A DNA stretch of 64,000 nucleotides from Candidatus Steffania adelgidicola. GTDB lineage: Bacteria > Pseudomonadota > Gammaproteobacteria > Enterobacterales > Enterobacteriaceae. A program made the translations under genes and the position numbers. The stretch spans positions 434,001-498,000 of the forward strand of contig NZ_CP045889.1 in the NCBI RefSeq assembly GCF_020541225.1. Direction: 5' to 3'. The notes beneath the pieces are model-generated. The model had not been told where the DNA came from. It saw nothing but the letters and a program-made list of their open reading frames with translations, and searched no databases. How positions within the stretch are numbered: the stretch's first letter is position 1; each line of letters opens with the position of its first letter. Below are positions 20,877 through 51,770 of the stretch, one piece after another.

Positions 20877-23800
20877 TTAGCGTAGATCTGGTGAATCTGG
20901 ACGGGTTTCTGGTGCGCTAGAGTGCCTGTCTGCAGTATGACCGCCAGCGCCGCCATTGCCTTCAAATAGGTAATTTTCTCTTTCCCAGTCGCCTCCTGGG
21001 AGAGACGAATCTTTATAATCCGGTAATATAGAGGGTGTAGTTGTTGGCGCGCTAGCATGACGCCTAAAACGAGTTTCAGGGATAACTAGCAACGAACGTT
21101 TATTTTCTGCATGTCTCGTATATTTGTTTCCCTGTACGGTTAGAGGGGAGGAAACTAGCGTTGTTTGACCGATCATGTCACTAGCTTCGCCTAAGATGGC
21201 TGCAGTTAATGCAGCAGCGTTAGAGAATAACTCCGGTGTTTCCGTAGGATTAGTTGTTTTATCAGAGAGTCGTGAGAAGAAGTGTGTTTCAGTTGATCGG
21301 GAGGATTTCTCAAAATCGCAGGTGCCTTTCTGTTTATCTTTAATAGGTGATGTCGTCTTTAAATCTACAGACTCTTGTTGTTGGTTGATAACGTGCGTTG
21401 TTAGCAGCATACTGCTACTAACAGTATGTTGGATCTGTTTTTCTCTCCACGGGGATTGAAGGGATTCAATTATTGGCAGTATCTCAGCATTATATGGTTG
21501 TGAAGGTACAGGATTCTTCAGTGGGATAAGCATTAACTGCGAGAGATGTTCGTGATTTAAGGTTTCTTTCATGGTTAAAGCTATGGCTGTTTCTAATGTC
21601 TGCTGCTGTTGCCCAGAAAATGCTGAAACTGATGATCGATGGACGTGAGAAACCACATGCGTAATTCCATCATTGTCTGTCTGTTGAATAGGACTGATAG
21701 GAGTAATAGGATAGCGAACCCATACTTTACCTGAGGCTATTTCTATAGATACCACTGCCCTGGTCATCGGCATTGGTGATACTAATAGATGAAGTTCATC
21801 ACGGTAACGTCGCCGACGTTGTCCACTAACGCGTAGATGGCGAGGTGAACGACGTAAACGGCGCGGTAGCCCGGTTTTATTACCATTACGGCTGATATCC
21901 ATGCTTCTGGACTGGAGCTCGTTGCTATTCTCAGATTGTAGATGGTTGATTCCATTATCTTGCCTGACTACTGCTGTATTAAAGATAACTGTGGCACTAT
22001 CCGTGATAGTAGAAGTCAGGGTGACAGGGATAGCTGATTTATCGTCAAGATGAATTTTTTGATTCAGCGGTCGGCGTACCTGATGCTGCGGTAACCGCAT
22101 CAGTTTATCGGCCTCATTTGTTTTTTCGCCACTCTTTATCTTTATATCATTGTTAATGATCAGAGCCTTGCTCTCCTGCGCGCTAGGGTCTGTTTTCAGC
22201 GCTTGCTGACGGCGATAGGATGGGGCATCTGGAGGTACCTCACGTTGTAGTGTCTCATTTTCTTCCCGCGGAGTTTTATTTATGAGATTACCCGTTGATT
22301 GTATAGCGGTGAAAGCTTGAATATGCCCTCGGGGGGGGTCGTTACGATTATTGTGTCGCTGATGATTCTCCTGATGAGCATGCTCAGGATCGCCATTATT
22401 GCGCTCGCGTCGTTCTTTGTTGTTCCTGTATAAAGCATGGAGTTTCTGACGCTGTGACATAGCTCCTTCGGGCGGTGTCTCGCTCATCAGAGCATCAGTG
22501 GAATCAGTTTCCTGTTGATGAGGTTGGGTACTAATAAGAGATTTGAAACCAGCAATGAGACGCCAGAATAAACTACGCGACATAAGAGTACCCGTAGAGG
22601 TGTTAGCAGAAACGGGCTTATCGCAGATCAATGAAGGATTGGGCATCATAAAATCCTCTATTGCCGGCTTTTCGGGACGCTTTCGCTCTGTAATAGCATC
22701 CTCTGATGAGTGTGTCGTCATCTCTACTTCATGAAGTTGCGGTAATAGATAGCTCAAAGTAGGGGCATCTTCGCCTTTTCTTACGCGTAAAACCCCATAA
22801 TGTGGGGTCTGCATTTGATCGTTTGGGACGATAATTGCTCTCACTCCGCCTTGACGTTTCTCGATTGCATTGACTGCTTCGCGTTTCTCATTTAGCAAAT
22901 AAGATGCTATGGGAACTGGTACGATCGCATGGACTTCATGAGTATTCTCTTTCAGGGCCTCTTCTTCGATTAGTCGCAATATGGAAAGGGAGAGGGATTC
23001 GTTATCGCGGATACGACCAGTGCCACTACAACGGGGGCAGACGTGATGGCTTGATTCCCCAAGCGAGGGACTCAGGCGCTGACGGGAGAGCTCTAACAAT
23101 CCAAAACGAGATATGCGTCCTATTTGAATGCGGGCACGATCCTGGCGCACTGATTCGCGTAGACAATTCTCTACTTCGCGTTGGTGGCGAAGTGGTGTCA
23201 TATCGATAAAGTCTATCACGATTAAGCCACCCAAATCACGTAGGCGCAGTTGTCGAGCAATTTCATCCGCTGCTTCAAGGTTGGTATTAAAAGCGGTTTC
23301 TTCAATATCGCCTCCGCGTGTTGAACGCGCGGAGTTAATATCAATAGCAGTAAGCGCCTCGGCAGTGTCAATAATAATAGAGCCACCGGAGGGTAATTTT
23401 ACTTCTCGCTGAAATGCGGATTCAATCTGTGATTCGATCTGATAGTGGCTGAACAGGGGGATTTCTCCGCTGTAAAGTTTAATTTTACTATTAAAATCCG
23501 GACGACCCAGTGATACGATATGAGCCTTCGCTAAGTTCAATACCTTTGGATTATCAATTAGGATTTCGCTAATATCAGGCCGTAAATAATCGCGAAAAGC
23601 GCGAACGATAACATTACTTTCTTGATAAATTAAAAATGGTGCAGGACGTCCTGCAGCAGCTTTTTGAATTGCCTGCCAGTGTTTCAGTCGAAAAGCTAAA
23701 TCCCATTGCAGGGCATCCGCAGACTTGCCAACGCCTGCAGTTCGAACAATCAATCCCATACCATCCGGAAGCTCAAGAGAGGATAAAGTTTCTTTTAACT

Positions 23801-24251
23801 CTATTCGATCATCACCTTCGATACGCCGCGAAATACCGCCAGCCCGTGGATTATTTGGCATAAGCACCAGATAGCTTCCAGCCAGGCTTATAAAGGTGCT
23901 TAATGCGGCGCCTTTATTACCCCGTTCTTCTTTATCTACCTGCACTATGACCTGCTGACCCTCCCGTAAAACATCTTTAATGTTGGGTCGGCTACTATAG
24001 TCAGAATATTGAGAAGGAAAATATTCGCAGGAGATCTCTTTGAGAGGAAGGAAGCCGTGTCGCTCTGCTCCATAATCCACAAATGCCGCTTCCAAGCTAG
24101 GCTCAATACGGGTGATTTTACCTTTATAGATATTGGATTTTTTTTGCTTGTGTCCAGGGCTTTCAATATCTAAGTCATATAGTCTCTGGCCATCCACCAG
24201 GGCGACGCGCAACTCTTCCTGTTGAGTTGCGTTAATTAACATTCTTTTCAT
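20877..24251 (-). CDS. rne: Ribonuclease E, full-length degradosome scaffold
   Basis: Essential endonuclease for mRNA decay and rRNA/tRNA processing. The 1124 residues slightly exceed E. coli (1061). The N-terminal catalytic half includes an S1 domain (about 35-125), the DNase I-like part with [12 protein letters not shown] and IVIDFIDM, and the zinc link CPRCSGTG (about 404-411). The membrane amphipathic helix is recognisable ([16 protein letters not shown]). The C-terminal half keeps the arginine-rich RNA-binding stretch [18 protein letters not shown], the enolase-site region [13 protein letters not shown] and a PNPase-site-like end ([15 protein letters not shown]). A C8 run in the coding strand (22331-22338) sits in the linker without breaking the frame. 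Confidence 0.97.
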
Positions 24252-24545
24252 CGTAACTTACTCATTTTTTATCTGTTGGTATCAGAGCTGCGGGTAAAAA
24301 ACGCATGTCAGATAATCACCGAGGATCCCGTAACTTGGTGAAAAGTCGTCAACCTTACCGTGGTTCCTTGCTAAAGAGCGAAATATTTCGGCAGCCTGTT
24401 TTTCATAACAGAAAACGGCGTTTTTTACGGATAGAATAACGTCTGATAGTAATTGCCAGAACGGATTCCCATTACCCACCAAGCTGTAATCGCAGCCCGC
24501 TAACTGCTTGATTAGCCATTACATCTTACGCCATTGCGGCGTTTG
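24252..24545 (-). promoter_or_regulatory. rne 5' leader (autoregulatory RNA)
   Basis: The minus strand upstream of rne preserves blocks of the E. coli rne leader: GCAATGGCGTAAGATGTA (24537-24520), CAGTTAGCGGGCTGCG (24506-24491), GTAAGGTTGACGAC near 24340, and TAAGTTACG just before ATG. In E. coli this roughly 360-nt UTR folds into hairpins (hp2/hp3) that RNase E binds to control its own mRNA. Conservation here is far above that of other spacers. A chance open frame (24282-24482) lies inside and should not be annotated as a gene. Confidence 0.8.
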
Positions 24546-24900
24546 GTCTACATCATATAAATTTAAGGTTTTTTCTGTCATGAATGAGACTATCGTTTGA
24601 TAAGAGTAGAGCGTGATATATTAATTACCATAATGAGTAAATCTGGTTCATGTTTGATTTCTCGTTTAGTTGTTTAAAGTAAAAAAGCGTGGAAAGTAAA
24701 CGTATTATTCCACTGGTGACAGGTGGATAGCAAGATGACTTTAGGCATCAATGATAGGTTTCAGACTTATCCTAAATGGCTTCTTAATCAGAGTGGATAA
24801 CGAGTGAAGAGATTACAGAAGATATTTCACCCATGAACCCATAGTTAAACATATAAAAAGAAGTGGCGCTATGGTGTCGATATATTTACAATCTCATTTT

Positions 24901-25857
24901 ATGAATGCGAATAAACCTAGTGGTTATTTTATCACCATTTCTCTAGATGCAGCTGGTCAGCGGACTGATAATTTTTTGCGTACTCACCTTAAAGGGGTGC
25001 CGAAAAGTATGATTTACCGAATTATTCGAAAAGGTTTGGTTCAAGTTAACAAAAAAAAAGTCAAACCGGAATATAAACTTAAACATGATGATAAAGTGCG
25101 TATTCCTCCAGTACGGCGATCAGAGGTAGAGAAGTCATGTATTTTTACTACATTAGATAATGTGGCGATATTAAATGATGCTGTGCTCTATGAAGATGAG
25201 GATCTTCTGATCCTGAATAAGCCAGCTGGTACAGCTGTGCATGGTGGAAGCGGTCTCAGTTTTGGCGTCATTGAAGGCTTGCGAGTACTTCGTCCCGATG
25301 TACGTTTTCTCGAGCTAGTTCACCGCCTAGATCGAGATACCTCTGGGGTCTTGTTGATAGCCAAGAAGCGTTCGGCATTGTGTTCTCTGCATGAGCAATT
25401 TCGTACTAAAGGGATAAAAAAAGATTATTTAGCGCTAGTAAAAGGTTATTGGAAATCCCGTTCTCAAAAGGTAGTGGCACCGCTACTAAAGAATGCGCTC
25501 ACTAGTGGTGAGCGCATCGTGCGGGTTAATGCTGAGGGTAAGCCGTCAGAAACCCGTTTCAAAGTGGAAGAACGATTTGCGTTAGCAACACTTATTCGAG
25601 CCACTCCGGTTACTGGTCGCACGCATCAGATTCGGGTTCATGCCCAATATGCTGGTCATCCTATTGCGTTTGATAATCGTTACGGGGATGATGCGTTTAA
25701 TCAGACACTAAAAGTGTGTGCCCTAAATCGTCTTTTTCTACACGCCATTTCGCTGTGTTTTGAGCATCCGACTAGCAGAAAAACATTTCGGATAGAAGCT
25801 CCATTAGATATAAAGTTAAATCGGTGCCTTCTTTATCTTCGTGCCAACAAGAAGTAA
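24901..25857 (+). CDS. rluC: 23S rRNA pseudouridine synthase RluC
   Basis: Makes pseudouridines 955, 2504 and 2580 of 23S rRNA. An N-terminal S4 RNA-binding domain (AGQRTDNFLRTHLKGVPKSM, about 18-75) precedes the catalytic domain with HRLDRDTSG, whose Asp is the nucleophile. I chose ATG 24901, giving 318 residues and an N-terminus the same length as in E. coli up to AGQR. The in-frame ATG at 24871 with AGAAG upstream would add 10 residues. It is divergent from rne, as in E. coli. Confidence 0.93.
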   Translation: MNANKPSGYFITISLDAAGQRTDNFLRTHLKGVPKSMIYRIIRKGLVQVNKKKVKPEYKLKHDDKVRIPPVRRSEVEKSCIFTTLDNVAILNDAVLYEDEDLLILNKPAGTAVHGGSGLSFGVIEGLRVLRPDVRFLELVHRLDRDTSGVLLIAKKRSALCSLHEQFRTKGIKKDYLALVKGYWKSRSQKVVAPLLKNALTSGERIVRVNAEGKPSETRFKVEERFALATLIRATPVTGRTHQIRVHAQYAGHPIAFDNRYGDDAFNQTLKVCALNRLFLHAISLCFEHPTSRKTFRIEAPLDIKLNRCLLYLRANKK

Positions 25858-25879
25858 AAATGCTGGTTACGTGCTAACG

Positions 25880-26290
25880 TTAATAGCGCTTTTTCCCGCT
25901 TTCTTGATAAGAAACGGAGAGAGTATTGGTGGTGTTATATTTAAGGAGACTCGTGTGAAGTACTGAATCCGGATTCAGAACAAGCTCCAGATCGCTCAGT
26001 ATGCATTTCTTTGTTTTTTCTATCTAGGTTGTGTATTTTTATGTTTGGTCATGTAAAAAGCACTTACATTTGTAGATAAATACTGTAGTAAATAGCCAAG
26101 TTCAACAATGATGCATAAAATCGCATACCTCTCATGAAAAATAAGAGGTTATTATTGCCATTACATAGTAATTCGGAAGTTAAGAACATAAGAGAGCCTA
26201 CGAGAAAGTAGCCGGATTTTGTTGTAAATTTGTTGTGAATGCCGAGATATAAATCGAGATTATGTTGGGGTACAAAAATCAATATATGGC
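25880..26290 (-). pseudogene. yceF: yceF fossil (Maf-like nucleotide pyrophosphatase)
   Basis: Minus-strand frames give RGMRFYASLLNL (about 26140-26100), resembling SGNIVTFYTGLAL of YceF. Further on, ILSDLELVLNPDSV (about 26003-25960) resembles ITLFERLEGRDPNTL, and ESGKK (near 25900) resembles REGKN. yceF converges on rluC in E. coli at this distance. Another frame over the second region also shows a weak similarity, so the assignment is only moderate. Confidence 0.45.
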
Positions 26291-27779
26291 TGTAGTTTAA
26301 TTTTGATTTCTAATATTAGAATAAAGATAATGGTATAAATTCCGGTAGAATGGCTCGATAATAATGCCTGAGGCTTAGAGGTACAGTAGTTAGCGAAGAG
26401 GGTCATCTGTACAGAAGGAGATGAAAGTATAGTCCTCCTATTTAGGAGCTTCGTCTCTCAGGTTAAAAAAGTAGTTGATACATTGTTGATTCTTGTTTAT
26501 CATTAAATGTTGAATATCTATGCTGATTCTGAGTGCAAATTACACAAGAAGAGTTGTATGTTGGACGGTATTTATAATTTACAGATCTGGATAAAACTTA
26601 TTAAGTTTTAGGAAAAATACCATAAAAATAGATATTTTATATAATGATGTGGAAGATTTATAAATAATACTCTTAGAAAGAGTATAACACTTAGGTAATA
26701 TAAATAAAGCCAGGTTCCATGTTTGGAGTTTTTTCCTGGGTATGGAAAAAGTTTTATCTATATATCTAGAGATGTCATCACGATATTTTATATGGAAGTT
26801 TATTTAGTATCCATACTAATAGTGAATAGTGAATAGTGAATAGTGAATAGTGAATAGTGAATAGTGAATAGTGAATAGTGAATAGTGAATAGTGAATAGT
26901 GAATAGTGAATAGTCTTTCTATATTTTATAGAAAGACATGATTAACGCAGATGAGTGAGCCAGAATTTAGTCTCTTGTTCAGCACTGACAATCACTCTAC
27001 TAAAGAGATAAGAAAAGTATTGATAAAAAAAGAATAGGGATCGCTATATACTAAGGCCCTAGTCTGAGTTTGTTTAAGTTAGTGACCATATGATTATATT
27101 AAAGTATAAGCATGAATAGATTAAAACAGAGATATTGTCTGAAGACGTGCCAGGATGAAGATTAAAGAGAGTAATTTTGTATCTATACGGCGAGTTGAAA
27201 TTTTATGAATTATAAGTGTAAACTTAAAGAACACGATATTTAAATGCGACGCTAGTAATACTATTTTAATATACAGTATACAAATTGTAATGATGTTACT
27301 TAGTTGATGGGTTTGTTTTTTTTCGCGTTCCGGCTCAGATCGTGATTCACAGACGACACGGACGACATTGACGACAAATTTAGCAAGTTTTTAAGGATTC
27401 TTTTTTTGAAAAAAGTTTTCTCTCCTTTCTGAAGATTATCTGGTTATCATCCGTAAATTTCTATACTTTCCAGCTGTATTTTTATCAATCTGTTTATAGC
27501 GCTGTTTATACCGATGTGGTATAAAACGTGTTGATATCCTGTAACAGGAAGCACTAAATTCTGCTGCATAAAGTATTTGAATACGCCGATTTCAGTTTTT
27601 TATATACAATCGAGAGGCATATGCTTCATAAAGATTATAGACAACCAGATAATACTATCTCTTCTTATAGGATTCATTCTTTTTCTCTAATATTGGAATG
27701 GAGCTGATCACATTATTCATCGATAGTTAAAAAGGTGGTCCTTGAAAGCAAGAGGAAATATTTTCCATATAAAATCATA
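26291..27779. other. Decayed spacer with heptamer repeat
   Basis: No protein or RNA gene recognised on either strand. The region contains the 13-copy AGTGAAT tandem array at 26821-26911. yceD-rpmF-plsX would follow yceF in E. coli, but no trace was found. Confidence 0.55.
26821..26914. repeat. Tandem heptamer AGTGAAT, 13 perfect copies
   Basis: Positions 26821-26911 are 13 uninterrupted identical copies of AGTGAAT, followed by a partial AGT; the three bases before (AAT) also match the unit. Complete identity indicates recent expansion. The unit length of 7 would shift any overlapping frame, and no gene crosses it. Confidence 0.97.
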
Positions 27780-28960
27780 CGGTTGTGTTTATCAATTCAA
27801 CTCACAATTATAACGGTGATTATTGTGGTTTTGAGTTACAGAGATAGAATAGGAGTAAGGTGTCTCTTGTACCATGTTTTTCGATATAGATTTCGAACTT
27901 ACTGTGTTCTTTTGGGTTGAAAAAGCCTCAGCAAAACATTGAAATTTATTTATCATTTTCTGATGCATAATTAATATTCTTACGAATAAGTAACTGTAAT
28001 TAAAAGGAATACTGTTATCGTTTATCGGCAGTAAATATCGGGAGGTTTGGAATAATTGGATTATTATACGAATAGACTCTAAGTCTATTTTGGATTGCGG
28101 AATTATATCTATATAAAAGATTATACTTAGCCAACGTCATTTAAGCAGGTTCGAATAAGGCTATACTGTAAAAAAATCAGTATGATTTTTTTTGAGCAAT
28201 TCAAGTTGCGACTGAATTCACGGTGTTTATAAATTGACGTGGGATATCAGATTCCAATGTCCCTATTAGGGATTAGGATAGCATTTTTCTTTTTAAAATT
28301 CAATTGTTGTCTAGATAATCTTCTATATCTGCGCTGAACGCAATAGGTTAGTTTATGACTTTCAAAAGAATCGATAAATTTCTTGTCTTTTCATCTCAAT
28401 ATCTGATAAATGGGAATAGAGAGGAGAATTCTTCTCAATCGCGTAGATGTGTGGGAAAGGCTTTATTTCTATCTGGATTTATCTGCGTTCCTCATACATT
28501 CCTCTCTCTCACGTTTTATGAAAAAATTCTATTTTTATTTATATCAACACTAACTGTCGTTTTATCAAGAAACGCTGAGTTTCCACAGTGCTCGTACGAT
28601 TCTTTAAAAATTGTTCATGCCTAGAAACATGTATTGTCACGGGGAAAACCTCGCGCATTCTTGAATGCGTAATAACGTTATCTAAATAATAACATGGCGG
28701 TTGCCCTCCATGTTATCTGGTGTTACCAGTGTAAAAGTTATTTTTAAGACTTCTCAATACGTTATTGAAGTAAACATGATGTTTTAAAATTACTGGGAGT
28801 GAGCCTTTCTTTTGTTCAGTATTGTTGAACTGGAAAGTGAATAGTCATAATTTCTTCTTCCCAAGAATATTGTCAGTTATTATTTATCCCAAAAAATAGT
28901 TGAAGTTATTGGATTGATATGTAATAGAAAGAGGTTTGTAAGATATCTATGGGGTACTAA
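27780..28960 (+). pseudogene. pncB: pncB fossil (nicotinate phosphoribosyltransferase)
   Basis: PncB salvages nicotinate into NAD and lies directly upstream of asnS in E. coli. Here VYDFQKNR*ISC (28351-28386) matches LMDFGTRRRFSR. Shifted by one frame, FLVFSSQYLINGN (28379-28417) matches WFVGTSNYDLARR, the correct following segment. Weaker similarity near 27865 (RCLLYHVFRYR) fits the N-terminal FHHYYDVHV part. The 89-codon open frame at 28355-28624 is a by-product of this fossil. Confidence 0.55.
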
Positions 28961-29526
28961 TAGATGATATGAGGCGCTTTTTGATACTGGTATATACATG
29001 ATATGTAGAACACTGATTGTAAAACATCTTCTTATACAATTTCCAATATGGTATTAAGGATGGATATGTATATATAATAAATTTGATTATGCTCCTAAGA
29101 AGTTTAAGAGCATACTGCATGAATATATATATTCTACACTCATAATATTTATGATGTAGTCTGAGATATTCAAGGTTCTGACAAGTTTAAAGAGGTGTAT
29201 CTGCAACTAAATCTTAATGATTTACCCAAAATTTGGATTATCTATAAGAATAGAGTATTTTAATATATAAATTTAAAAAAATATAAAATTACTTTTTTTC
29301 ATGTCTTTTCTAAGTATTTTTACGCAACACTGATACTAAAAAGTTACTAAACTCAATTGGATATAAATTCTGCTGTTTATTTATTTTTTTATGATTCTTT
29401 TTAATATCAAAGACGTGAAATATGCGATTTTCCATTCTTGGCTTTCCGATTCGAAGTAACATATTATGTTATCGTTTTTTATTTAATTGAAAATCCTGTT
29501 TTGTTAACTAAGTGGGAGGGAATTTT
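28961..29526. other. Spacer upstream of asnS
   Basis: Very AT-rich and without coding similarity. It must contain the asnS promoter, but several TATAAT-like stretches make a single choice unsupported. The GGGAGGG at 29514-29520 is the asnS ribosome-binding site. Confidence 0.6.
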
Positions 29527-46010: not shown

Positions 46011-46403
46011 TTATTCTTCAGAATCCCTAGCACCAGACTCATTAGTTTCGGCACCAAAATCTTCACGGTGTTCACGGTGTTCGTCTTTCGGTTTCAACAT
46101 TGGTGAAGCTTCAGTTACTGCATGTTTGACGCGCATGATCATACCGCGGATGATAGCTTCATTGAAGCGAAAATCTGTTTCTAGCTCGTCAATTACTTTC
46201 TGCGACGATTCTACGTTTAGTAGAACGTAGTGAGCTTTGTGCAGTTTATTAATTGGGTATGCTAGCTGGCGTCTTCCCCAGTCTTCTAATCGATGGATCT
46301 GACCTTTATCACGCGTGATAAAGGTAGTATAACGTTCGATCATTCCATGAATCTGTTCACTTTGGTCAGGATGAACCATGAAAACTATTTCGTAATGACG
46401 CAT
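46011..46403 (-). CDS. rpsF: 30S ribosomal protein S6
   Basis: It has 130 residues (131-135 in E. coli) from [20 protein letters not shown]. The ferredoxin-like fold is complete ([20 protein letters not shown]), followed by an acidic tail that ends in glutamates (RDSEE), the segment RimK extends in E. coli. The start is preceded by AAGGAGCAA. First gene of the operon. Confidence 0.96.
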
Positions 46404-46875
46404 GAAATTGCTCCTTACGGATTATTTAGCCTCCTGGCATGGTCAACTGCTTTCCATGGAAGCAAGGAACGTGATAATTTACGGTGCGGCTTAGAATTAA
46501 TGTTCTATTCTACTTGTCTTCATTCATCAATACAAGCACAGCGTAAAATTATTTTTGATGTGTACATATGGCAATTGATATGCAATGATCAGTACTGTTT
46601 TAAAGTACGGAAAACTAGCAACAATCGCAGTGATTATGCTTTAGGAATTTCATAGCCAACATTTTTTTGATTGATCAACTCGCTAAGAGCGTTAGGATGA
46701 GGAATCCGTAATAAGCTACAACATAGAGTTGCTCTAAATTGCATATGAATATTACTTTTCTTGGCGTTGAGTTATACTGATTTAATTGGATTTAAAGCTA
46801 GACAAATTATGTCTCTTAATCAGACCTTGGTTTATGTTCCATAAACGCTAGAAAATCGGCATCCTCAACTACATA
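46404..46875. other. Spacer efp-rpsF
   Basis: No protein or RNA match. Must hold the promoter of the rpsF operon, which is read leftward. The plus-strand open frame here is the antisense shadow of rpsF. Confidence 0.5.
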
Positions 46876-47636: not shown

Positions 47637-48623
47637 TAGATTTATTAAGTATAGTATTTTAGTGAAATATTTTTGATGTTTTTATTGTGTGTTTTTTCTT
47701 AATTCTACAAATCGCGTTTTATTAGATAGATATCTAATACGAGTCATTAATATTAAAGATAACCCCATAAATAATCTATGAATTAATTGTATAGAAAGCG
47801 ATCAAAAATAATCTAATGGTATTAGTTTATTCTGCTAAGGAATATTGTGTGATTATTTCTTTCTGTTCTATACCCACTCATGATTAAGAGTAATCCATAT
47901 AATAGTTTTACACTATTTTTCTGAGTATTTTATTGAAAATCGGCACATGGTGGTATAAATAATGATACCAATTTCTAATCTTGTTTACATGAGATGATGG
48001 TTATTGGAAAGCGCTCTACAGAGTTCCCTAAAGTAAGGCGTTTTTAACCTCTTGGTAGAAAGCATTTAAATATTGTTGTTTATACATGCTCCATCAATCC
48101 TGATTGCATAATTATGCAATGTGTTTTGTTTGTTTCTATAATATTGAGACAAGCACTCAATCTATGAGTCTTTTTACGCAATTTGAATGGTATATATGTT
48201 ATATAAAAGAGAGTCATAAGATATTTATAGAGTTTTTTAGAACTGTGAAGTTCGCTAATAGTAGAGAAAAATATGCATATGACTGCTTAATGGGCAGAGT
48301 TTGATATAGAACTCACCGTTTGAGTTTATTGTACTATCTCAAAACGAAGAATATAATCAAATACTTTAATTGATGCATAAACCATCGCCATAAAGTTACC
48401 AATTCTATTGTAGTAAAAGAGTGGACTTGATAGTATAGTTGTACTATACGTACTGGAGTATAGTCTCTAGGTTTTTCGGACATTATTAGTATATACGGAT
48501 GCATTAAAATTTATTAAACAGTAAACATAAAACATTAATCTGATCCAGCAAAGAGATTGACGCTTGTTATTTTAGTAACAGCATCATATGAATCTTAGTA
48601 TTAGCATCATATAAAATGTATCG
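47637..48623. other. Decayed spacer efp-tRNA-Pro
   Basis: epmB is divergent from efp in E. coli. I searched the plus strand for its CxxxCxxC radical-SAM region and found none. A 66-codon frame at 48104-48304 has no recognisable domain. Confidence 0.5.
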
Positions 48624-48697
48624 CGGTGAGTGGCGCAGCCTGGTAGCGCAATACGTTCGGGGCGTATGGGTCGGAGGTTCGAATCCTCTCTCACCGA
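48624..48697 (+). tRNA. tRNA-Pro (anticodon CGG)
   Basis: A cloverleaf with the C1 start typical of bacterial proline tRNA and anticodon CGG in the ATACG-TTCGGGG-CGTAT arm; the body matches E. coli proK. The encoded CCA is gone (TAA at 48698-48700). Retention of the CGG isoacceptor is notable, since a UGG tRNA could read CCG. Confidence 0.96.
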
Positions 48698-50349
48698 TAA
48701 TGTCGCAAGAGCAGAATATGAAATTCTCAGCTGCATGATATTACATATCAATATATAATCTTGAAGACTTTTTCTCTTTTGGTTTTGGTATGACGGTTGT
48801 GTAAGATTGCTGATATACTTACAGTGGCTGGATTTTGGATCAAGTATGTAAACACAGAAAAAGTCCTTAGTGTATATTTTTTGGTTTGTTTCTGCTTTTT
48901 CTTCTATTTAGTTTCTTTTCGCATTCCTAAGAGGAAGATTCTTCTTGAAAAGAAGAATGAGTAGGATTTCCTTCGCATTTTTTGTGAATTTCAATAAGAA
49001 TTGATAATTCTTATTGAGTAGAAATATCAAATTAGATTGGGTATCTAACCTTACAGCTACGGAATTTTTATTCCAATGCGATCCAGAGCTAAGATGATTT
49101 TTATATTTATCCCTATAAAAAGTCAAAAATTATTTGTCTTTTTGAGTGCTAATTTTCTTAGATTTAAACGATGATCTGTCAGTCCTGTGACAGGATCGAT
49201 TGGTAAACAACAGGTCCCTATTGGAAATAGGGAAACTAAGATCGTACGAGAAACGTTAGGATTAGATCAGATTATCGCATTATAGGCATAAATGCAAACC
49301 TCTTCAATCTTACTGATCTCTGTACTACTGAAAAACTATTTTACGTATAAAGAATGTATCATATTTATATATCCCTTCTTGGCTATCTAGGAATTCAGTA
49401 GTTTCGATAATGCGCTGTGCTTTAAATTCAGTACTGAACAATAATCGAAGATTATTAAGCACGATTCTGAACAAACAATATATCTTTTTATGATGATGTA
49501 AATTACTTAGTAATTTGTTCATATGCAAGAGTAAGAATTAAATGAAAACTCGATACTGTAAGACTTAGTAAAACGACCTTCATTGTGATGTGACTATCCG
49601 TGTGATATCAGTTAACTTAACTAAGCCCGAAAATTTTAATATAAACTATATATTTTATATTCCATTAGATATCACAAAAACAAAAAAAATTTTATTATAA
49701 CATAGATACTCATCAATATAGTTTATGTAACGTACTTGTAAATATAATCAGTTAAATATATTAATCAGATACTGGAATTTATCCGAGATATCATCTTCAT
49801 ACAAAGGATAGTCTAATTCGCGTTAACAATTTTAATTTGATAAAAATCCCAGAAATCATATTGTATTTGTTATTTTTTTTATAAAAATATATTTTTATGA
49901 GATCAATTGTGATATTAAGTAAATGTAGAACGTTTCTAAAAGATATTAGGGGAATCAAAATATCTAACTTTTTAAAAGTTAGCGAATCTAATCTATTTAT
50001 TGTCTATCACGAGTTAAATTTTATTTGATAGTTTATAACGCTCATGGTTATCTATATTATGTTCTATATGCAGGAAGAGTTAAACTGTATCATATGATTT
50101 TAATCAGGTAATATACCTGCTTAGGTATGTGAAAATTATTTTTTTAAAAGATTAAATATTTTTAATGTGATATTGTGTTAATTATAAAATTTATTAAATA
50201 AGTCAGATTGATTCCTTAATGAAAACCAAAGTAGTCAACTTTATATCCAGAATATACTCTTACACTTTGTAAAAACAAGTCCTGTGCCATTATATGGAAC
50301 AGTTTAGTCGAATGAGAATGGGTGATTAGACATTCCTATAAATAGTTCG
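48698..50349. other. Decayed spacer after tRNA-Pro
   Basis: About 1.65 kb with no gene recognised. A hairpin TCCCTATT/AATAGGGA (49215-49222 with 49226-49233) lies in it. Minus-strand frames at 48908-49126 and 49325-49528 have no family features. Confidence 0.55.
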
Positions 50350-51770
50350 AACCTCATAGGTTGCGGAGTGCTCTGGAATACCTAGTTCTCTACCAAACCA
50401 TCGCTAATCTGGATGGTCAGCTAATTACTATAGCGTATAACTCGTTTTTTTACTACTTCGCCAAAGTTATCGGCGAAGACGCTAACACCCCATTTTTTAA
50501 GGTTTCCAGCGGGCTAAGGCCCGCTAGCCGAGCGGATAAAGTTATAAAATATGATGTTATAAGTTAACGTCGCGGTTTATTCTTTGCGTCCATTGTTAAA
50601 GCAAGACCTGTAGTTGAGTCTTCACCTCGTTTGTAGATAAACATTATGGTATCTTTGCATTTGGAGAAGGTATCTCTCTAAACTGTGATTCAGTTGGCAA
50701 GGCCGTTCTCAATAAGGCGATTTTCTGCTGAGTGAGCTGAGTTCTTGAATGTGGTGGAGGTCGACGGTATTTTAAGGCGACTTAGTCGTTCTGGAGTTAT
50801 GTAAGCAAGTAATCCATTGCTATTTCTAATTTCAATTATTGAGAGTGCAGTTGACCCAGAAGCGTTACCTGATTACGGCTGACTATTTCATCGGACGATG
50901 ATGGTGTTGGCAAATAAAAATTAGCAATAAAATTAGCGATATTTACGTTGGTAACATAGCGGACTACACTCACTACCGGTTGCTTATTATTAAAAATCGA
51001 CTGTGCTAGTTTTTATTATTAAAATAGGCAAGTTTCTCTCGGGAAACCCTCTTAGGACTGAGGAGGGAGAGATTATGCATTCTGTGCGTTTATTAGGAAT
51101 ATCGATAGTACGTATATTCTGTGCTGGTGTGTTCTATTCTTATCCTATACAAAAGATAAAGTATCACTGTGATCGCCAGATCACGTTGTTTTAGAATCTG
51201 TAAAATATTATGTAGCACTGTACCGTTAGCAGTGGTAATCAACCCCCATGCAGCGAATAGAATGGGTAGTGGTTACTGAAAATATTTCTTAAACCACGCC
51301 TTTCATTGCTTAATTGTTGTTTAAGCTGCTAAAACTCTTATTTTAGTAATCTCTCACCACACTTAGTGGCATGTTTTTGTCAAGGCGTTGATAGTTTCCG
51401 CGTGCTTCATAAGGCGTGAGATATACGCGTACTCATACTTATTGACCGTTTCAGGATGACAATTTGGTTTGAGAAAATGGATGTAATACAACATTGTGCG
51501 CTCGGTTATGCGAGATTGGCTTTGAGTGTGAAAAACTAGTAATTAGATGCGGGCTATGATGAAAAAAATAAGATATTTTACCTGCGAACCAAATTTGATT
51601 GAGATTGCTTTCCAGAAGTGTACGCACTATGTGATTCAGTTTGTTAATGGTTAGCACCAGATTAGAAGAAGCACCATGCACATAAAAAAGTTGGACTCTA
51701 TCAGAAAGCTGTAACGGATTTATACTTTTTAAAAAACTATAAGCAAGAATTTTAATAAATAGTGCTGGAG
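50350..51770 (-). pseudogene. xseA: xseA fossil, near full length (exonuclease VII large subunit)
   Basis: The minus strand can be followed along almost all of XseA (456 residues). LVLTINKLNHIVRTLLES and QIWFAGKISYF (about 51680-51580) match FTVSRLNQTVRLLLEH and QVWISGEISNF. VRVYLTPYEARGNYQRLD (about 51430-51375) matches VRANITLYEPRGDYQII. GLITTANGTVLHNILQILKQ (about 51245-51185) matches [33 protein letters not shown] and EIVSRNQVTLL (about 50925-50850) match DFVADLRAPTPSA and EVVSRNQQELL. FGEVVKKRVIR and QISDGLVEN close it near 50355. There are several stops and frameshifts. It is divergent from guaB as in E. coli. Confidence 0.92.

Follow-up and report, generated by a model that had tools for sequence, protein, structure and literature searches.

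The DNA directly upstream of rne in the window (the whole 64,000-nucleotide stretch that was analysed) is best read, with a probability that we put at about three in four, as a divergent RNase E autoregulatory leader of the E. coli type, probably working and of a kind already known. RNase E sets the decay rates of mRNAs, and its feedback loop is well studied; the names P1, hp1, hp2 and hp3 of the E. coli rne work are applied here to the corresponding parts. The sequence itself shows homology, position, preservation of the hp2 core and of the P1 block, constraint, and an uninterrupted rne frame in which the residues checked are intact; transcription start, binding, cleavage and feedback were carried over from work on E. 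coli. By that analogy, a transcript from P1 would carry a leader of about 446 nt, and RNase E probably still binds its hp2; at high RNase E activity this binding would cause the rne mRNA to be cleaved and degraded, and less RNase E would be made, as described for E. coli rne in passages of PMC6850036 and PMC3997798. Coordinates are collected in Table 1.

Table 1. Features of the rne leader region and its neighbours, in positions of the window.
Feature	Position	Strand	Basis or remark
rne open frame encoding RNase E (1124 aa)	20877..24251	-	ORF; catalytic half and recognisable scaffold motifs; Pfam RNase_E_G, RNase_E_G_Thio, S1, PNPase_C
Predicted rne 5′ leader, about 446 nt, P1 to ATG	24252..24697	-	P1 spacing compared with the E. 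coli UTR
RF00040 rne5 match, model 1-333	24276..24602	-	5′ part (hp1) forced onto inserted stretch
Long-range closing helix of the leader: 5′ arm starting at 24498, GGGCTGCG, 3′ arm CCCGCAGCTC ending 24285	24285..24498	-	8/11 pairs standard
Stem-loop after hp2	24433..24469	-	10/10 model pairs standard
hp2 hairpin region, putative RNase E binding element by homology	24500..24562	-	covariance model R1, 47.1 bits, E 1.2e-8
hp2 core ACGCCGCAATGGCGTAAGATGT, model 65-86	24521..24542	-	2/22 sites differ from L033
P1-to-hp2 stretch, 89 nt longer than in the Sodalis symbiont and without a BLAST match to it	24567..24683	-	hp1 unrecognisable
P1 promoter block AAAGTCATCTTGCTAT 24742-24727; -35 TTGCTA 24733-24728; -10 AATAAT 24709-24704	24704..24742	-	conserved across relatives
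rluC-like ORF, divergent neighbour	24871..25857	+	ORF; aligns to sequence adjoining rne in relatives' genomes

The original prediction had placed a conserved rne leader at 24252-24545 and had proposed a covariance search with the Rfam rne 5′ UTR family. With cmscan that family, RF00040 (rne5), was matched over its full model at 111.6 bits (E 9.3e-34), in the correct place and on the correct strand, the match stopping 24 nt short of the rne ATG. The score lies under the curated gathering cut-off of 180 bits; no rne5 was called when the window was scanned at Rfam curated cut-offs, and an E-value threshold was needed to recover the leader. The leaders of the symbiont Candidatus Sodalis sp. SoCistrobi (L033) and of Escherichia (L059) reach 239 and 263 bits against the same cut-off. 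By the strict Rfam rule the element is uncalled; its homology and its position identify it with rne5, in a divergent form. A weak match to Diantho_3_UTR on the opposite strand (E 0.014; 20 bits, the cut-off being 100) was taken as chance. Two blocks that had been named as nearly identical to the E. coli leader are indeed so: CAGTTAGCGGGCTGCG, read on the minus strand from 24506, has 0 mismatches to L059, and GCAATGGCGTAAGATGTA, from 24537, has one in 18 sites; the latter sits in the hp2 core, and the former starts at the 3′ edge of hp2 and enters the 5′ arm of the long-range helix. Over 24252-24545 as a whole, 203 of 274 aligned sites are identical to L059, with a score of 157 compared with a maximum of 8.5 in 100 shuffles. 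The predicted interval itself was too short, for the Rfam match reaches 24602 and the P1 block lies at 24742-24704.

We assessed hp2 with a covariance model (R1) built without the window from an hp2 alignment of 47 leaders, these being the 50 candidate named leaders less three duplicates; the symbiont L033 was included, and the window, L075, L080, L083 and the non-Enterobacterales loci were left out. The 18 pairs of the structure, drawn by hand on these aligned sequences and guided by the Rfam fold, fit 88.2% of the alignment cells. Both-sided changes occurred in 11 of the 18 pairs (43 distinct sequences; 7.0 in shuffles), and the covariation score was 0.285 compared with a shuffled mean of 0.131, none of 500 shuffles scoring as high and the score falling to 0.04-0.07 when the structure was slid. 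Over 624 kb of the genome, R1 found nothing at E up to 1 other than the hairpin in the rne leader; the next-best match in the window reached 15.6 bits, compared with 47.1 for the hairpin. From these comparisons, the hp2 hairpin with its conserved core is retained. In RNAfold the lower stem of the window hp2 carries two bulges, and the hp2 tip folds as ACGCC/GGCGU at a probability near 1, a form that excludes the covarying ACG/CGU helix; of four relatives, L034 and Escherichia L059 preferred a similar ACGC/GCGU tip, L033 took the covarying form, and L035 was divided. The folding energies of the leader, hp2, the 3′ part and the insertion were no better than those of shuffles, and covariation was used in their place.

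Outside hp1, 59 of 73 model pairs are standard in the window. When the 72 such pairs that are standard in L033 were followed, the window breaks 12, with one on a gap; over the RF00040 fold 59 of 71 pairs were thus kept, compared with a null mean of 56.1 (P 0.07, not significant), and base-pair upkeep over the whole leader is suggestive only. Set against the E. coli rne leader (361 nt, RF00040), the window has the same position before rne, the divergent rluC, the P1 block, the hp2 core sequence, the stem-loop after hp2 and the long-range closing helix; it differs in scoring under the curated cut-off, in being about 85 nt longer, in an hp1 that is unrecognisable, in a lower hp2 stem that is shifted and has bulges, and in one inner helix of the rne5 fold that is mostly lost (3/7 pairs). 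The SoCistrobi leader, from the nearest named relative among the loci listed, has the same hp2 core at 20 of 22 sites; it differs in lacking the P1-hp2 insertion (116 compared with 205 nt) and in scoring above the Rfam cut-off.

The window belongs to a single-contig genome of 1,369,541 bases. Residues 1-517 of its RNase E are 93% identical to those of SoCistrobi, the best among at least 80 named loci, and because RNase E is closest to this symbiont among the matches listed, we call this reduced genome Sodalis-allied, as judged from RNase E identity rather than from a tree. The gene order is that of E. coli, where rne and rluC also form a divergent pair. All 17 of the RNase E residues checked are identical to those of an Escherichia RNase E; nine of them are catalytic, zinc and 5′-sensor positions. 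The other eight are groove residues given in a passage of PMC9841416. The catalytic half agrees with the Escherichia enzyme at 450/510 residues and the scaffold half at 167/512 aligned residues; stretches of the scaffold half resemble AR2 and the sites for enolase and PNPase (site coordinates as given in PMC4435900). In E. coli, according to PMC3997798, the scaffold half and the 5′ sensor of RNase E are both of importance to autoregulation. Elsewhere in the window, 25858-29511 and about 47638-51450 are long stretches without ORFs of at least 100 aa, which suggests decayed genes.

Sequence constraint on the rne leader is supported by comparison with L033. Outside hp1, 67 of 288 aligned leader sites have changed (29/144 paired, 38/144 unpaired), compared with 134 of the 219 fourfold-degenerate sites that rne codons 1-520 contain (Fisher P 5e-18), in a comparison with one relative whose fourfold GC is 0.77 compared with 0.42 in the window, which may inflate the fourfold divergence. 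The hp2 core, with 2 of 22 sites changed, is likewise slower than fourfold sites (P 3e-6). Compared with the remainder of the leader, its lower rate of change is not significant (2/22 compared with 65/266, P 0.12), and the rluC-P1 spacer is conserved to about the same degree as the leader (83/104 identical); selection on other signals therefore contributes. The earlier claim that feedback control is under purifying selection holds insofar as the leader is constrained and hp2 retained; it falls short insofar as feedback itself is only a probable reading and hp2 is not significantly slower than its surroundings. The hp2 rate and the conserved rluC-P1 spacer favour the alternative that survives best, and that we consider unlikely: that the leader is homologous and the regulation lost, hp2 still looking good owing to a recent split or to pinning by promoter or translation signals. 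This alternative also gains from reduced relatives in which the leader remains alignable and hp2 has decayed, for example G148 (80 bits to Rfam, 15 bits to the hp2 model) and G079 (46 bits to Rfam, nothing by the hp2 model at E up to 10). Such relatives show that retention of hp2 in the window was not automatic. Against lost regulation, divergence at the fourfold sites far exceeds that of the leader, which therefore had time to decay, and the hp2 core still agrees with L033 at 20 of its 22 sites. We keep to a leader that is probably working.

We examined how far such leaders extend among relatives. Of 392 genomes of the family, 290 gave an rne5 match (E up to 0.01) and 240 scored above the cut-off. 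Thirty-nine hand-chosen small genomes were searched again with looser filters: 22 of the 23 matched genomes of at most 2.4 Mb (besides G000) and 17 unmatched ones; G051 (2.2 Mb), with a strong match (E 1e-61), was omitted. Within these 39, rne5 was found at E up to 1 in 22 and below 1e-6 in 16, each of the 16 upstream of rne and on the same strand, and above the cut-off in none; this points to an annotation gap at the curated rne5 cut-off. The rne gene was sought in 80 of 124 genomes (the 22, plus 102 unmatched) and was present in 73 (E up to 1e-30); the 73 upstream regions were taken and one (L159) was dropped for a contig edge, leaving 72 for the hp2 search. There 13 of 72 regions had hp2 at E below 0.01, upstream of rne and in the sense direction; by size these were 10 of 16 genomes of at least 1.1 Mb compared with 3 of 56 smaller ones (P 3e-6, relatedness ignored). 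In these counts AT drift hampers detection when the genome is small, and rne5 matches partly decided which genomes entered the set. In two loci, L167 (G037) and L162 (G173), hp2 is kept at a much shorter distance from the gene, with its core about 75 nt upstream of the rne ATG. In one 1.4 Mb genome with an hp2 match, the rne match (G135:C1:944757-946002) comes in two pieces, the second with an internal TGA.

The P1 block at 24742 fits the motif with 0 mismatches, and the block is conserved in the alignment of relatives. Taken as a bare consensus match (9/12), its hexamers do not exceed chance, 1.9 such sites being expected in the region and 2 present, so the support for P1 is its conservation. 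The E. coli rne UTR is 361 nt in the text of PMC6850036, and fitting this length to the P1 spacing of L059 puts +1 near 24697; transcription probably starts there, at P1, and the leader would run to about 446 nt because the P1 block and hp2 stand 86 nt farther apart than in the median of 50 other leaders. The P1-hp2 distance is 205 nt in the window, compared with a median of 119 nt in the 50 others (the 47 of the alignment with L075, L080 and L083; range 26-252, the lowest values, L083 at 26 and L077 at 47, looking like misplaced motifs) and with 116 nt in L033, that is, 89 nt more. When the region was compared with the SoCistrobi genome by BLAST, the match ended at 24566 and resumed at 24684, leaving 117 bases in the window compared with 28. 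The Rfam match starts at 24602 because hp1 of the model was forced onto this inserted stretch, and at the position so placed only 5 of 11 hp1 pairs are standard. As to where the stretch came from, the rest of the genome gave only short weak matches to it; no tandem repeat was seen, and there was one weak plasmid match (E 0.1). Long P1-hp2 distances also occur in Erwinia and Winslowiella (L050 252, L061 241, L069 240, L054 177, L062 171 and L056 142 nt), which are other lineages and are likened to the window by spacer length alone. In E. coli, hp1 is not known to be needed for rne regulation, and the stretch between P1 and hp2, where hp1 stands elsewhere, is probably not needed here. An 8-codon open frame at 24625-24651 (-), in the region of the inserted stretch, is probably chance.

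The insertion could have brought a promoter of its own (ATGACA-18-TATGAT, 24581-24552), with a transcript start within hp2 that would let rne mRNA escape feedback. The site lies at the insertion edge and fits the consensus at 10/12, one above P1, but two such sites stand in the region compared with 1.9 expected by chance, and P1 is conserved across relatives; we hold this very improbable. That the region is a short coding sequence and not leader RNA is scarcely credible: a 20-codon frame (24519-24581, -) does run open through hp2, but its start is in the inserted stretch, the same frame in L033 is stopped just before the hp2 core, no ribosome-binding site was seen by eye, and variation among relatives tracks base pairing. 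The frame is probably chance.

An E. coli-type leader in a genome of this kind leads us to a tentative proposal, which we would not rate as high as an even chance: hp2-based RNase E homeostasis may be among the last post-transcriptional circuits to be lost in genome erosion, often persisting in reduced symbionts of about 1.1 Mb and more, surviving the loss of hp1 and the stretching of the leader, and then going piecemeal while rne stays. If this is true, surveys at the Rfam curated cut-off may have scored the rne leader as lost too early. In one Serratia symbiotica survey with Infernal at curated cut-offs (PMC5013485), the portion on features conserved across strains lists no rne leader, and a literature search over titles and abstract openings found no paper on rne leaders in symbionts. 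A genome that is losing regulation would also serve as a natural test of the parts of the loop, hp2 and P1 staying and hp1 going.

The rne leader had further been described as an island, with other spacers unalignable, in a genome that had shed much other regulation. Spacers were compared over 40 kb of the 64 kb window (14001-54000) and read by hand against ORFs and tRNAs. Against the Sodalis symbiont genome (G392) the rne leader (315 nt) was the longest aligned non-coding stretch found, followed by the P1-rluC part of the rne spacer (187 nt) and by five more stretches of about 80-122 nt; in the comparison with an Escherichia genome (G394) the leader gave 292 nt, followed by the rpsF leader (74 nt) and a stretch of 72 nt. 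The leader is thus the longest, and shorter spacers align too. At Rfam curated cut-offs, a scan of the window and 28 further stretches (624 of 1,370 kb) called no sRNA gene, in line with shed regulation; besides tRNAs and one 16S rRNA, it gave six other cis-regulatory leaders, four of them on ribosomal or ribosome-maturation genes as judged by family names. The rne leader is therefore one of a small surviving set and no lone island. The six are the RpsF leader (RF02893) in the window at 46401-46485 (-), with 75.9 bits compared with a cut-off of 37; the alpha-operon RBS (L231 8191-8301) and the cspA thermoregulator (L231 13726-14123); the rimP leader (L232 10866-10969) and the S15 leader (L232 16973-17089); and the Rev39 5′UTR (RF02744), a family named for soft rot Enterobacteriaceae, which reaches its cut-off at L244 18143-18445, about 1118143-1118445 of the genome.
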